This document shows, one piece after another, positions 164 through 4,426 of a stretch of DNA of 5,057 nucleotides; within the stretch, counting starts at the first letter, position 1; every line of letters begins with the position of its first letter. The stretch is taken from the NCBI GenBank assembly GCA_947472965.1, contig CANJEF010000125.1:1-5057 (forward strand), given 5' to 3'. The notes under the pieces were generated by a model. That model saw nothing but the letters and a program-made list of their open reading frames with translations. It searched no databases and had not been told where the DNA came from. The position numbers and the translations under genes are program-made. The stretch is from Sphingobacteriales bacterium. GTDB taxonomy: Bacteria > Bacteroidota > Bacteroidia > Chitinophagales > Chitinophagaceae.

Positions 164-871
164 ATGCCCAATACCAACCTCCAACAGCATCTGCGTGAAG
201 CAGGATACGACCTCATTGATGGACCCATTCGCAACCACAAACCCTTGCAACTTTGGTTGAAACAGGGATTCAATCAGCCGGAGCTTTATTACGCTGATAT
301 CCTGCACGCTTTCAACAGCGGCATAAAATTGCGACCTACAAAGGATCCGAGTTTATCCATTAACGACGTACATAAAAACGAATATGCTTTTCAGATCGGA
401 CTTACCTTATTACAATCATGGATGCAATCGATTGGACTACCAAATGTTGATTTCAGTGGCACAATCAGTACCGGGAAGAAGGTGAGTATCTCCTATAAGA
501 ACGCAATGACGGAAGTGGTTCCCTTAGGCAGTATAAATGATTTTTTAAGTCAGGCTGATTTTCTTCATCCCAATCCTGTGCTACTCCGCCATGCCAACAA
601 CAATCAGTTGCTGATTATTACAGGGGTGGTAACTGCAGAACAGCTGGTAGCTGAGATGGAAACGGATAGCAAGATCAGTAGCAAAATGCTTTCTGCTTTG
701 AAGAAGACGGCAAACAATAAAATTGAGTTCTCCACTTCACGAAACAATAGCATCAAGATGGTTGCCGGATCAAGTCGTTTTCCTATAGCCGTAAAAGCCA
801 GTAGGATTGATTTTGACAAAGGACGTTTCAAGGGATTGACCCTGGTAACCGATGGGAGGGATTTCTTCTGA
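164..871 (+). CDS. Gasdermin-like protein (candidate bacterial gasdermin)
   Basis: A 235-residue protein with no signal peptide and no classical membrane helix. Bacterial gasdermins (bGSDM) are soluble, held inactive by a short C-terminal peptide, and form large membrane pores once a neighbouring protease removes it, killing phage-infected cells. The resemblance is by pattern. There is an N-terminal 'hLREAGYDLIDGP...KPLQLW' segment (residues 10-31), like the 'AGY.vi..P....PL.ll' start of bGSDMs. An amphipathic helix 'LTLLQSWMQSIGLP' (80-93) is followed by alternating strands 'KKVSISYKNA' (105-114). Next come 'PLGSINDFLSQAD' (120-132), like the 'l..ld.FL..ad' segment, and 'NNQLLIITGVVTAEQL' (146-161), like the gasdermin 'vyVvt.vl.t' strand. 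Last is a long-hairpin-like region ending in 'FPIAVKASRIDFD' (206-218). The final 17 or so residues would be the inhibitory tail. It has no cysteine, so the N-terminal palmitoylated cysteine of characterised members is absent, and it is slightly short (from memory about 250-280 is usual). No clear Shine-Dalgarno precedes the ATG. It is monocistronic by spacing. It could instead be an unrelated hypothetical protein. Confidence 0.55.
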   Translation: MPNTNLQQHLREAGYDLIDGPIRNHKPLQLWLKQGFNQPELYYADILHAFNSGIKLRPTKDPSLSINDVHKNEYAFQIGLTLLQSWMQSIGLPNVDFSGTISTGKKVSISYKNAMTEVVPLGSINDFLSQADFLHPNPVLLRHANNNQLLIITGVVTAEQLVAEMETDSKISSKMLSALKKTANNKIEFSTSRNNSIKMVAGSSRFPIAVKASRIDFDKGRFKGLTLVTDGRDFF

Positions 872-975: not shown

Positions 976-2055
976 ATGTCTATAAACGGTTCAATCAGGG
1001 TTTTGGTCGTCGGGTGCGGTAACATGGGTGCTTCTCATGCAATGGCTTTTCAGTTGATGGAGGGTACAACAATTTGTGGCCTGGTATCAAAAGGAAAGAG
1101 CAAAGAAGTGTTGGATGAAAAGCTGGGCGGTGGTTTTCCGCTGTTTAATGATTATGCGGAAGCACTTGAGAAAACATCTCCTGATGCTGTTTGTATTTCA
1201 ACTTATCCAGATACGCATGAAGCTTTTGCCATCATGGCTTTTGAAAAAGGTTGTCACGTTTTTATGGAGAAGCCCATCGCAGATTCTGTTGCAGGTGCTG
1301 AACGTGTTGCAGCCGCAGCAAAAAAAGCTGGAAAGAAATTGGTTGTTGGTTATATACTTCGTCATCACCCTTCATGGATCAAATTCATTGAACTTTCACA
1401 TCAACTAGGAAAGCCATTGGTAATGCGCATGAACCTCAATCAACAAAGCCATGGATATATGTGGGATGTGCATCGCAATCTAATGAAAAGTTTAAGTCCA
1501 ATTGTTGATTGTGGCGTTCACTATATTGATGTCATGTGCCAAATGGTTCGATCAAAGCCCATCCAGGTATCTGCCATTGGAGCAAGGTTGACCAATGATA
1601 TACCGGAAGGAAATTACAATTATGGACAGCTGCAGATCCGCTTTGAAGATGGATCTGTAGGTTGGTATGAGGCAGGGTGGGGACCTATGATCAGTGAAAC
1701 GGCATTCTTTGTAAAGGATGTCATTGGTCCAAGAGGTTCTGTATCGATTGTTGCAAAAAATGCAGCAGCTGCAGGACAATCCGATTCAGTTGCTTCGCAT
1801 ACTAAAACAGAATCTTTGCGTTGGCATCATGCAGATATCGATCCTAAAAATGAATTTACCAAGCCCGATGAATGGATTGATCTTACCGATGAACCTGATC
1901 ACCAGGAATTGTGTAACAGGGAACAAGCATATTTTTTGAAGGCTATCAACGAAAATATTGATCTGACCGATCATGTGGATGATGCGGTGAACAGTCTCAA
2001 AATTGCATTTGCATGCGATGAGAGTGTAAGGACAGGGAAAATCATTTCGCTATAG
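976..2055 (+). CDS. Gfo/Idh/MocA family NAD(P)-dependent oxidoreductase
   Basis: A cytoplasmic dehydrogenase of 359 residues, the usual length for the family, which oxidises or reduces a hydroxyl or keto group of sugars, inositols or sugar acids using NAD(P). The Rossmann domain opens with 'RVLVVGCGNMG' (residues 8-18, GxGxxG type). It continues to 'DAVCISTYPDTHEAFA' (70-85) and the family signature 'MEKPIA' (97-102), with the catalytic Lys99. The C-terminal alpha/beta domain carries 'VDCGVHYID' (177-185), where Asp178 and His182 fit the DxxxH active-site motif, and ends with 'AVNSLKIAFACDESVRTGK', typical of the family. I chose ATG 976 rather than the in-frame ATG at 943: the latter adds 11 residues before the Rossmann strand and would start inside the candidate promoter palindrome. 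The gene is followed 29 bp later by a GntP permease, so they are probably one transcript. The exact substrate cannot be read from sequence. Confidence 0.93.
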   Translation: MSINGSIRVLVVGCGNMGASHAMAFQLMEGTTICGLVSKGKSKEVLDEKLGGGFPLFNDYAEALEKTSPDAVCISTYPDTHEAFAIMAFEKGCHVFMEKPIADSVAGAERVAAAAKKAGKKLVVGYILRHHPSWIKFIELSHQLGKPLVMRMNLNQQSHGYMWDVHRNLMKSLSPIVDCGVHYIDVMCQMVRSKPIQVSAIGARLTNDIPEGNYNYGQLQIRFEDGSVGWYEAGWGPMISETAFFVKDVIGPRGSVSIVAKNAAAAGQSDSVASHTKTESLRWHHADIDPKNEFTKPDEWIDLTDEPDHQELCNREQAYFLKAINENIDLTDHVDDAVNSLKIAFACDESVRTGKIISL

Positions 2056-2084
2056 CCCAATCATCAATCACTTAAAAAAATGAT

Positions 2085-3365
2085 ATGTGGTTACTTGTAT
2101 TGGTAAGTATCTTTTTGCTTATAACACTCATTTCATTTTTTAAGCTACAACCTTTCGTATCATTCTTGATTGTATCTCTCTTTTTGGGATTGGCCAGTGG
2201 TTTTAAAACTGGCATCATCATTGATTCTATTCAGAAAGGCATTGGGTCTACATTGGGAGCCATTGTTTCCATTATTGTTTTAGGGTCAATGATTGGCAAA
2301 ATGATTGCCAAGAGTAATGCTAGCATTGTGATTACCGATTCATTGGTAAACATTTTTGGTCCGAAAAGATTACCATTTGCATTTATGATCATTGGATTTA
2401 TTGTTTCCCTGCCTTTGTTTTTTTCTGTAGCATTTCTACTTATGACACCCTTGGTTTTGTCAACAGCAAAAAGACAAAACATCAATCCTGTTTATCTTGG
2501 AATACCGATGCTTGCATCATTATCTATCACACAAGGCTTTTTACCACCACATCCAGCACCTTATTACTTGGTGACCCATCTACCAGGCGCTGATTTGGCT
2601 ACTACTTTGGGGTTGGGTATCGTCATTGCTATACCGGCAATGTTGATTTCAGGTTGGCTTTTTGGTATGTCATTGAAAAATATAAATGCATCACCAATGA
2701 ATTTTACGCCAGATGAAAATTTGAAAATCAATCCAAGTTTATTTTCTAGTTTACTTGTGTTGTTACTACCTGTATTGTTGATAGCCCTTCATTCTTTTTT
2801 CAACAATGATTTTGCTGCATTCATTGGCGAACCGATTGTAGCACTTTTAATATCATTGTCAGCAGCCATTTATTTATTGGGTTTTAAAAGAGATGTAGCT
2901 TGGTCTGACATGCAAAATTGGTTAATTGATGCCATCAAGGAGGTTGCGCCATTGACCCTAACATTTGCTGGAGCCGGAGCATTTAAGGAAATGCTACAAA
3001 CCATGCATGTAGGCGAAGAAGTAATGAAATTAACCAACAACAGCCCATTCAATCCATTGATTATTGCTTGGTTGATTGCAGCCTTGTTGCGAATTGTAAC
3101 GGGATCTTCAACAGTGGCGGGTATTACTACTGCAGGGCTCATACTTCCCTTGTTAGCAAAATCAGCAGTAAATCCAAATTTATTGGCATTGAGTATCGGA
3201 GCCGGATCCATGGTTATGTCGCATGTAAACGATACAGGATTCTGGTTATACAAAGAGTACTTTGGCGTTTCGATAAAAGATACATTGCGTTCATGGACTA
3301 TTATGGAAACCATACTTGGCATTGTAGGATTGCTAGGTGTATTGGTGCTGCAATATTTTATTTAG
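2085..3365 (+). CDS. GntP family permease (gluconate / sugar-acid:H+ symporter)
   Basis: An inner-membrane transporter of 426 residues, close to the usual 430-450, hydrophobic throughout with roughly twelve membrane segments. GntP members import gluconate, idonate, glycerate, fructuronate and similar hydroxy acids with protons. Landmarks seen are 'GFLPPHPAP' (residues 151-159), the amphipathic 'AGAGAFKEML' (295-304), 'RIVTGSSTVAG' (336-346) and 'SHVNDTGFWL' (379-388), all hallmark GntP segments. A cytosolic loop containing 'NASPMNFTPDENLKINPS' (201-218) separates the two halves. The start ATG at 2085 gives a normal N-terminus beginning directly in the first membrane helix. An overlapping ATG at 2080 is out of frame and stops within a few codons. 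The 29-bp gap after the oxidoreductase indicates an operon in which the imported substrate or its product is probably that enzyme's substrate. The ligand is unknown; gluconate itself is not implied because no gluconate kinase is visible. Confidence 0.95.
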   Translation: MWLLVLVSIFLLITLISFFKLQPFVSFLIVSLFLGLASGFKTGIIIDSIQKGIGSTLGAIVSIIVLGSMIGKMIAKSNASIVITDSLVNIFGPKRLPFAFMIIGFIVSLPLFFSVAFLLMTPLVLSTAKRQNINPVYLGIPMLASLSITQGFLPPHPAPYYLVTHLPGADLATTLGLGIVIAIPAMLISGWLFGMSLKNINASPMNFTPDENLKINPSLFSSLLVLLLPVLLIALHSFFNNDFAAFIGEPIVALLISLSAAIYLLGFKRDVAWSDMQNWLIDAIKEVAPLTLTFAGAGAFKEMLQTMHVGEEVMKLTNNSPFNPLIIAWLIAALLRIVTGSSTVAGITTAGLILPLLAKSAVNPNLLALSIGAGSMVMSHVNDTGFWLYKEYFGVSIKDTLRSWTIMETILGIVGLLGVLVLQYFI

Positions 3366-3472
3366 CAACAAGCATTAAATAGCTTTTATTCTAATTTATC
3401 AGGTTTATAAACAATTTATTTTGCTTATAATTATTTTCAACTTAAATCATTAATTTCCATAAAATCGAGATC
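3366..3472 (+). other. AT-rich spacer between the permease and the isomerase-like gene
   Basis: This 107-bp stretch has no gene and no convincing hairpin terminator. TATTTTG at 3417-3423 is one base short of TAnnTTTG, and TTATAAT lies just after it at 3425-3431. Either could serve as a weak internal promoter for the isomerase-like gene, but neither is convincing. Immediately before the ATG at 3473 the sequence has only a poor purine-rich stretch (CGAGA, 3466-3470). Confidence 0.25.
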
Positions 3473-4426
3473 ATGAACAGAAGAAAATTCATCAAAAATG
3501 CTTCGCTGCTTTCCCTTGCTGCAGTTTCCAATACCAATCTATTTGCCCAACATAATAAACTTATTGGCAATATCGGTTTGGGATTATTTTCCATTCCTAA
3601 AAAGCTTGATGCCAATTTTGAAGAGGCAATAGCCATGGTCAAGTCAATGGGGTTTAATGAAATTGAAATGTATGGTCCCTATGATTTCAGCACAGATAAA
3701 GCTAAAAGACGTTGGGATGAAATCACCCCACAATTGGGTTTTAAGGGCAGTGGATTTTTTGGAAAAACAGCTACTGATGTTCTTGCTATAACAAAAGCCC
3801 ATGGGATCAGCATACCATCTTTGCATACGGACCTTGATACGTTACAAAATAATATCTCTCCATTGTTGGATGCAGCGAATTTAGTCGGGGCTAAATATGT
3901 CGTCCTCCCTTCCATTCCTGATGAAAACAGACAAACACTGGATGACTACAAAAAGACTGCCGCTCTTTTTAATCTAATTGGAGAGAACTCAAAAAAACAA
4001 GGTGTACGTTTTGCTTATCATAATCATGGATATGGTTTGCAGAAAAAAAATGGTAAAATGCCAGTGGATATCATATTTGATGAAACTGATCCATCACTCG
4101 TATATTTTGAAATGGATCTTTACTGGACGGTGGCAGGTGGCGTTGACCCAATCGAATTTCTCACCAAACACAAGGGAAGGTATAAGATGATGCATGTTAA
4201 AGACATGAAGGAAAAGAAAACATTTGCAGGTGATGGTGGGAATGCAACACAATGGATAGCCTTGTTTCCTTACATGTGCAGTGCAGGGGATGGTGTTATC
4301 GAACTGCCAAAAATTCTGAAAGTTGCAAAAGAAAATGGGGTAGATCATTTCTTTATTGAGCAGGATATGGTTGCAAACCCTGAGCAGGCATTGAAAAAAA
4401 GCATTGATTTTCTTCAATCATTATAG
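3473..4426 (+). CDS. Exported xylose-isomerase-like TIM-barrel protein (sugar phosphate isomerase/epimerase family)
   Basis: A 317-residue protein with an N-terminal export signal. 'NRRKFIKNA' (2-10) has a twin arginine, followed by a short hydrophobic stretch and a possible cleavage after 'NLFA' (about residue 25). It therefore probably works in the periplasm, via Tat or, since the motif is imperfect, Sec. The mature part is an AP-endonuclease-2/xylose-isomerase-like TIM barrel. It has 'MVKSMGFNEIEMYG' (55-68), 'HGISIPSLHTD' (110-120), 'GAKYVVLPSI' (139-148), 'RFAYHNHGY' (179-187), 'VYFEMDLYW' (210-218), 'MMHVKDM' (239-245) and 'DHFFIEQD' (291-298). His183/His185, Glu213/Asp215, His241/Asp244 and Glu296 are candidates for metal binding and catalysis. 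Family members isomerise or epimerise sugars or keto-sugars with a divalent metal. The 107-bp gap from the permease leaves open a separate promoter, though the shared direction suggests the same pathway. Substrate unknown; some relatives act on 3-keto-sugars. Confidence 0.88.
   Translation: MNRRKFIKNASLLSLAAVSNTNLFAQHNKLIGNIGLGLFSIPKKLDANFEEAIAMVKSMGFNEIEMYGPYDFSTDKAKRRWDEITPQLGFKGSGFFGKTATDVLAITKAHGISIPSLHTDLDTLQNNISPLLDAANLVGAKYVVLPSIPDENRQTLDDYKKTAALFNLIGENSKKQGVRFAYHNHGYGLQKKNGKMPVDIIFDETDPSLVYFEMDLYWTVAGGVDPIEFLTKHKGRYKMMHVKDMKEKKTFAGDGGNATQWIALFPYMCSAGDGVIELPKILKVAKENGVDHFFIEQDMVANPEQALKKSIDFLQSL

Follow-up and report, generated by a model that had tools for sequence, protein, structure and literature searches.

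The gasdermin gene and its surroundings

The window is a stretch of 5,057 nt from a Sphingobacteriales bacterium (contig CANJEF010000125.1), in which an ORF on the forward strand (positions 164-871, ATG to TGA, stop included) encodes a protein of 235 aa, hereafter the window protein. The initial annotation had called this product a candidate gasdermin by eye, and the motifs that it quoted are found in the translation. A Gfo/Idh/MocA oxidoreductase gene (976-2055, forward strand; PF01408, E 1.1e-25) begins 104 bp after the gasdermin gene and is not judged to be part of the system; the other downstream genes encode a GntP permease, an AP_endonuc_2-type protein and a TauE protein. The oxidoreductase, the GntP-type permease and the AP_endonuc_2 protein (myo-inosose-dehydratase-like, with a signal-like N terminus) make up an ordinary sugar-acid or polyol cluster at 976-4426. 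An operon of the gasdermin gene with these sugar genes is unlikely because of the 104-bp gap and because close relatives have different neighbours. The earlier remark that no defence island is obvious holds for the visible window, where the downstream genes are those just named and the view upstream extends over 163 bp; within the same limits, no protease gene was found beside the gasdermin gene. A search of positions 1-1100 for sigma-70-type promoters gave two matches, neither of which precedes the gene on its strand and which did not exceed those in shuffled sequence, and a Bacteroidota-type promoter pattern had no match.

The ORF is not a chance frame, since 312 proteins match the window protein at E <= 1e-3 (the top match being 94% identical and of equal length), differences between homologues fall mainly at third codon positions, and dN/dS is low in close pairs. 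Compared with its relative L001, from a Chitinophagaceae metagenome-assembled genome (MAG), the window gene differs at 38, 24 and 122 first, second and third codon positions, and the third-position excess was seen against the nearest seven loci (L001-L007). Seven close pairs, six of them within L002-L005 and the other being L006-L007, had dN/dS ratios of 0.037-0.103; none includes the window, as dS was saturated in every pair that did. The clade of short gasdermins described below is thus under purifying selection.

Gasdermin identity

A profile search placed the window protein above the curated cut-off of the NCBIfam prok_gasdermin family NF051890 (114.2 bits, cut-off 100), and the PADLOC bGSDM profile matched aa 5-226 with an E value of 7.1e-24. 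Two chains of the solved Vitiosangium bGSDM were also matched, 7n51 at E 5.9e-7 and 8sl0, which we take to be the active-pore chain, at E 4.4e-7; aa 9-211 are collinear with 7n51, the similarity covering the N-terminal domain. A profile built from 32 relatives (A1) found the same two chains (8sl0, 3.7e-10; 7n51, 5.4e-10), the next chain having an E value of 0.2. Profile-profile comparison with two groups of longer gasdermins gave 98.1% (E 1.4e-13) and 96.3% (E 1.7e-9), and group A8, comprising nine longer gasdermins, bridges the short clade to 7n52, 7n50 and 9v2s. The Pfam scan of the window protein gave no gasdermin match, the Pfam copy scanned being one without PF26164; PF26164 is precomputed for the best 120 of the 312 homologues, as it is for Aquimarina proteins listed by one source under the name 'Gasdermin bGSDM'. 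Close relatives in Flavobacterium, Fluviicola and Epilithonimonas are already named 'gasdermin' by their sources. By sequence, therefore, the window ORF encodes a true bacterial member of the gasdermins, which in animals form pores in cell death, as the by-eye call had proposed, and this identity is by itself an ordinary finding.

A distinct clade of short gasdermins

One scan of species genomes yielded 41 loci, 40 of which are Bacteroidota by title or uncultured, the remaining one being from Glaciecola (Pseudomonadota). A tree built from 65 rows separates the 48 short proteins, the window protein among them, from the 17 longer gasdermins; the dividing branch measures 2.43 changes per column and has support of 100/98, with the caveat that some of the rows bring long branches together. 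The sister of the window protein in this tree is L001 (97/91), and identity across orders is about 50% in A1. Sequence comparison thus defines the short gasdermins as a distinct, mostly Bacteroidota clade.

The gammaproteobacterial protein, from Glaciecola amylolytica, groups with a Fluviicola protein (100/99), and this grouping suggests that the Glaciecola gene was likely acquired by horizontal transfer. Occurrence is patchy when genomes with a gasdermin of either type above the family cut-off are counted, centre genome included: 3 of 392 in the phylum of the genome holding L012 and 8 of 150 in its genus (Flavobacterium), 4 of 244 in the family of the L001 genome, and 4 of 295 in the class of the L031 genome. 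Of 19 genomes in which a match was found, 18 have only one short copy; the other, a Chitinophagaceae MAG (G004), holds two (L004 and L006) that are 66% identical. Aquimarina aggregata carries one short and one longer gasdermin. No relatives of the window protein were found in viral contigs, by either the protein search or the A1 search, or in plasmids and phages. At three further places (L054 1222-2142, L066 1117-1974 and L068 1075-1896), ORFs matched the gasdermin profile weakly, at 21.7-34.1 bits and thus below the cut-off; these ORFs start with lipoprotein- or secretion-like signals and may encode exported gasdermin-like proteins.

Conserved features along the protein

Among 15-residue bins, conservation in the clade is highest at aa 16-30 (0.89), inside a signature, GYDLIDGPIRNHKPLQLW, at aa 14-31 (positions 203-256, forward strand) that was unseen in the longer gasdermin groups. 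Within it, G14, Y15, D16, G20, R23, N24, Q29 and W31 are invariant in the 32 rows of A1. Two regions collinear with the solved bGSDMs follow. The putative first membrane hairpin region, of strand-helix-strand type (aa 73-116; positions 380-511, forward strand), shows peaks of strand periodicity at aa 73-82 and again at aa 93-104, with helix periodicity at aa 79-91, and the putative second (aa 147-200; positions 602-763, forward strand) has strand peaks at about aa 161-175 and 182-194; these peaks are suggestive only, coming from a scan of 226 windows with z at most 3.4. The last strand that can be aligned to longer gasdermins, FPIAVKASRIDF (aa 206-217; positions 779-814, forward strand), aligns with FGFKC of Vitiosangium and FALKA of group A8; P207, A209, K211 and A212 are invariant in A1. 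Conservation of aa 211-225 is 0.78, and F235 is present in at least 90% of A1.

The C terminus ends where a cleaved gasdermin ends

The length of the C-terminal part was counted as the number of residues after the last strand shared with longer gasdermins (anchor A212 of the window protein) in one alignment of 262 rows. These comprised 102 longer gasdermins and 160 short rows (the best 120 of the 312 homologues, 39 loci and the window protein), some loci and homologues being one and the same protein. Rows under 220 aa (one short, five longer) were left out, giving 159 short and 97 longer proteins. The length limits of the homologue search, 0.55 to 1.75 times the query, left room for tails of that size. 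In the short set, 157 of the 159 proteins have exactly 23 residues beyond the anchor (24 and 25 in the other two), versus 42-61 in all 97 longer gasdermins. In the window protein these are aa 213-235 (positions 800-868, forward strand).

The same count was read from printed alignments of the deposited structures, assuming no C-terminal tag. Runella 7n52 has its anchor at residue 224 of 268, leaving 44, and 9v2s, deposited as 'Gasdermin bGSDM, N-terminus', has it at 219 of 242, leaving 23; in Vitiosangium the anchor is at 217, with 49 residues after it in 7n51 (266) and 20 in 8sl0 (237). With 23 residues past the anchor in both its clade and 9v2s, the window protein is therefore as long as a cleaved gasdermin. 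According to the review PMC9612521, bGSDMs are cut about 20 residues before the C terminus, and a peptide of about 20 residues restrains the protein. By length, such an inhibitory peptide past a cleavage site is absent from the short clade, although one alignment would allow a compressed tail. The initial annotation was thus right about gasdermin homology in a Bacteroidota-type sequence, but its expectation of a C-terminal peptide packed on the sheet found no support in the length, unless the tail is compressed. A truncated canonical gasdermin was rejected because one C-terminal length is common to 157 of 159 clade members.

When profiles are aligned with longer gasdermins, the alignments end at aa 223, leaving the last 12 residues without a demonstrated counterpart. 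In one multiple alignment a gap precedes these 12 residues, which are paired with the C-terminal part of the longer proteins, as if a loop were missing rather than the terminal peptide. The 23 residues might still restrain the domain, because the C-terminal parts of bGSDMs span a dozen to about 100 residues according to the review PMC12547243.

The short clade mostly lacks cysteine

The window protein has no cysteine, and neither do 149 of the 159 short-clade proteins; the other ten have one each, at no position shared by more than 10%. Only 8 of the 97 longer gasdermins are cysteine-free, and one N-terminal position is cysteine in 85% of them. A cysteine within the first ten residues was found in 82/97 longer versus 1/159 short proteins. 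Typical bGSDMs carry a palmitoyl-cysteine and the Trichoplax gasdermin is disulphide-locked, as stated in PMC12547243. The N-terminal palmitoylation-type cysteine of most bGSDMs is absent from the window protein, and the lack of cysteine excludes both a palmitoyl-cysteine and a Trichoplax-type disulphide lock for most of the clade (149/159).

Neighbourhoods and proteases across the clade

The short gasdermin genes have a solitary setting. With a simple ORF caller, a same-strand gene lay within 60 bp upstream at 1 of 37 loci and downstream at 4 of 40. Ninety-one neighbours (within two genes, one per cluster) were scanned in batches of 30 or 31, in which 43, 39 and 33 families were found; among the 25 top families of each batch, from which weaker matches may be hidden, no family had more than two members. 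The neighbours were mostly metabolic or uncharacterised. Those relevant to defence or proteolysis were CHAT (two), Shedu SduA_C, a Fic protein, a PDDEXK_2 transposase and Peptidase M49, and no defence island was found in the sampled neighbourhoods.

Two protease families, caspase-domain (Peptidase_C14, PF00656) and CHAT (PF12770), were sought genome-wide in 30 host genomes, which cover 30 of the 41 loci; the omitted loci are mostly further Flavobacterium. PF00656 gave six matches in 5 of the 30 genomes, one of them belonging to the second, longer gasdermin of Aquimarina, and in these 30 genomes no such gene lies within 17 kb of a short-clade gasdermin, as judged from the contig, its length or the distance. 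CHAT was present in 12 genomes and lay within 3 kb of the short gasdermin in three, the next nearest placeable match being about 16 kb away. In two related Bacteroidales (L015 and L029) the CHAT-TPR genes are divergent from the gasdermin gene. In Pontibacter (L016, 2343-6349), a CHAT gene, a gene of 379 aa without a Pfam match and the short gasdermin gene are co-directional, with 163 bp before the gasdermin gene. A protease gene adjoining the gasdermin gene is thus not the rule in the clade for these two families in 30 genomes. The usual companions of anti-phage abortive infection, namely the N-terminal cysteine, a linked protease and a defence island, are absent in the visible window and rare in the clade.

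The neighbours of four longer gasdermins were scanned for comparison. A caspase-domain gene lies directly upstream in L071, a neighbour in L072 has a CHAT match of 23.9 bits (cut-off 24), and caspase and CHAT genes lie within about 4 kb in L075. The fourth, of Pinibacter type (L073, 333-5178), lacks the N-terminal cysteine and is adjoined by SIR2-like and STAND-TPR genes, with no protease seen.

Genes for DUF3754 and an Mpo1-like protein adjoin the gasdermin gene in 13 loci, and in 12 it lies between the two; near the Flavobacterium loci (L011-L040) this pair marks a variable slot. Among 81 Flavobacterium genomes, 16 have the two genes within 2.7 kb of each other, and the slot holds a gasdermin in two, is bare (66-159 bp) in six and has 0.58-2.7 kb of other content in eight. 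These contents fit with gain and loss of the short gasdermin as a single gene. DUF3754 and Mpo1-like proteins are weakened as candidate partners, because the gasdermin-free slots are bare in six genomes and otherwise filled in eight.

A gasdermin that may be controlled without cleavage

We judge that there is about an even chance that the window protein is an N-terminal-domain-only gasdermin controlled without cleavage of a tail, like fungal RCD-1 and the Trichoplax gasdermin. Most likely, it would be made as an inactive soluble form, held without a C-terminal peptide or palmitate. Candidates for the restraint are the domain's own resting state, self-contacts of a conserved segment, a ligand and an unlinked partner; the GYDLI(D/E)GPxRNxKPLQLW segment may replace the tail in control through self-contact, ligand or partner. 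A trigger would lift the restraint, whereupon two amphipathic hairpins of the predicted fold would insert in the membrane and a ring pore would form, so that the cell would be killed or depolarised, possibly as part of a defence. This reading is favoured by the gasdermin homology, the C-terminal length, the lack of cysteine, the solitary setting without a PF00656 gene within 17 kb in 30 genomes, the well-supported branch of the clade, the purifying selection and the precedents in Trichoplax and Neurospora. Counting against it are the end of the profile alignments at aa 223, the alignment that pairs the last 12 residues with the C-terminal part of longer proteins, bGSDM C-terminal parts as short as a dozen residues and the three genomes with CHAT within 3 kb.

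The main rival to control without cleavage is that the tail has been compressed: the last 12-23 residues, with their conserved aromatic end, would be a short inhibitory peptide, the cleavage loop would have shrunk, and an unlinked protease, perhaps of CHAT type, would remove the tail. This would account for the good conservation of the C terminus (aa 211-225 and F235) and for the one alignment in which the last 12 residues are paired with the end of the longer proteins, and it agrees with bGSDM tails starting at a dozen residues, as given in PMC12547243; the clade nevertheless ends at the length of the deposited cleaved Runella chain. As for the protease, the occurrence of CHAT in 12 of the 30 genomes, its position within 3 kb of the gasdermin in three and the co-directional genes in Pontibacter have to be set against the 18 genomes without a CHAT match, the 25 without a PF00656 match and the divergent orientation in both Bacteroidales cases. 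On balance, we regard a compressed tail as unlikely.

Still less probable, in our judgement, is a domesticated fold that has lost lethal pore formation and taken a resident membrane or lipid-binding role. Strong purifying selection, about 50% identity across orders and sampled neighbourhoods with neither a defence island nor, as a rule, a linked protease would suit such a role, but the patchy occurrence of gasdermins of either type (3/392 genomes in the phylum, 8/150 in Flavobacterium), the gain and loss at the variable slot and the Glaciecola copy that groups with Fluviicola are more like conflict or accessory genes than housekeeping ones. It is scarcely credible that the protein is not a gasdermin and resembles one by eye only: the empty Pfam scan, made with a copy without PF26164, stands against concurring NCBIfam, PADLOC, solved-chain, A1 and profile-profile results and against PF26164 being precomputed for the best 120 of 312 homologues and for the Aquimarina 'Gasdermin bGSDM' proteins.

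Building on cleavage-independent control, we tentatively propose, at somewhat short of an even chance, that the clade is a protease-free class of bacterial gasdermins whose members would come and go as a single gene, would be made directly in the cleaved form and would be kept safe without cysteine or tail by way of the GYDLI(D/E)GPxRNxKPLQLW segment. If so, proteolytic unlocking would not be a rule for bacterial gasdermins. With a clade that by sequence has no peptide, no cysteine and usually no protease, the need for cleavage in bacteria becomes directly testable, and structure work should be easier because the proteins are small and mostly cysteine-free. Among the titles and abstracts searched, no description of tail-less bacterial gasdermins was found, which is not a claim that none is in print.

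Comparison with known gasdermin systems

In bGSDMs, the off-state is kept by a short C-terminal peptide and proteases serve as the on-switch, according to the reviews PMC9612521 and PMC12547243. The short clade resembles the bGSDMs of Vitiosangium, Runella and Bradyrhizobium in its collinear N-terminal domain and in its matches to the bGSDM profile and the prok_gasdermin equivalog. Unlike them, it is about 20 residues shorter at the C terminus, lacks the N-terminal cysteine and has no linked protease as a rule. On the features tested (tail, cysteine and adjoining protease), the window protein falls outside the protease-activated bGSDM system.

The longer Bacteroidota gasdermins (Aquimarina, 276 aa; Pinibacter, 258 aa) have the phylum and the NCBIfam family in common with the short clade. 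The Aquimarina type differs in its N-terminal cysteine, longer tail and a caspase-domain gene directly upstream. The Pinibacter type differs in its longer tail and in the SIR2-like and STAND-TPR genes alongside, and has no N-terminal cysteine.

Outside bacteria, Neurospora RCD-1 (244 and 257 aa) and the Trichoplax gasdermin (250 aa) consist of the N-terminal domain only and act without cleavage, as reported in PMC12547243 and PMC11760362. The Trichoplax gasdermin is disulphide-locked, whereas 149/159 short-clade proteins have no cysteine. RCD-1 needs two allelic partners, whereas only one short copy is present in 18 of the 19 matching genomes, G004 having two; two-allele activation inside one genome is thus not general in the clade. 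By length, and unless the tail is compressed, the short clade is like RCD-1 and the Trichoplax gasdermin in having the N-terminal domain only, with no close sequence kinship demonstrated, and a bacterial counterpart to their cleavage-independent control can now also be tested.
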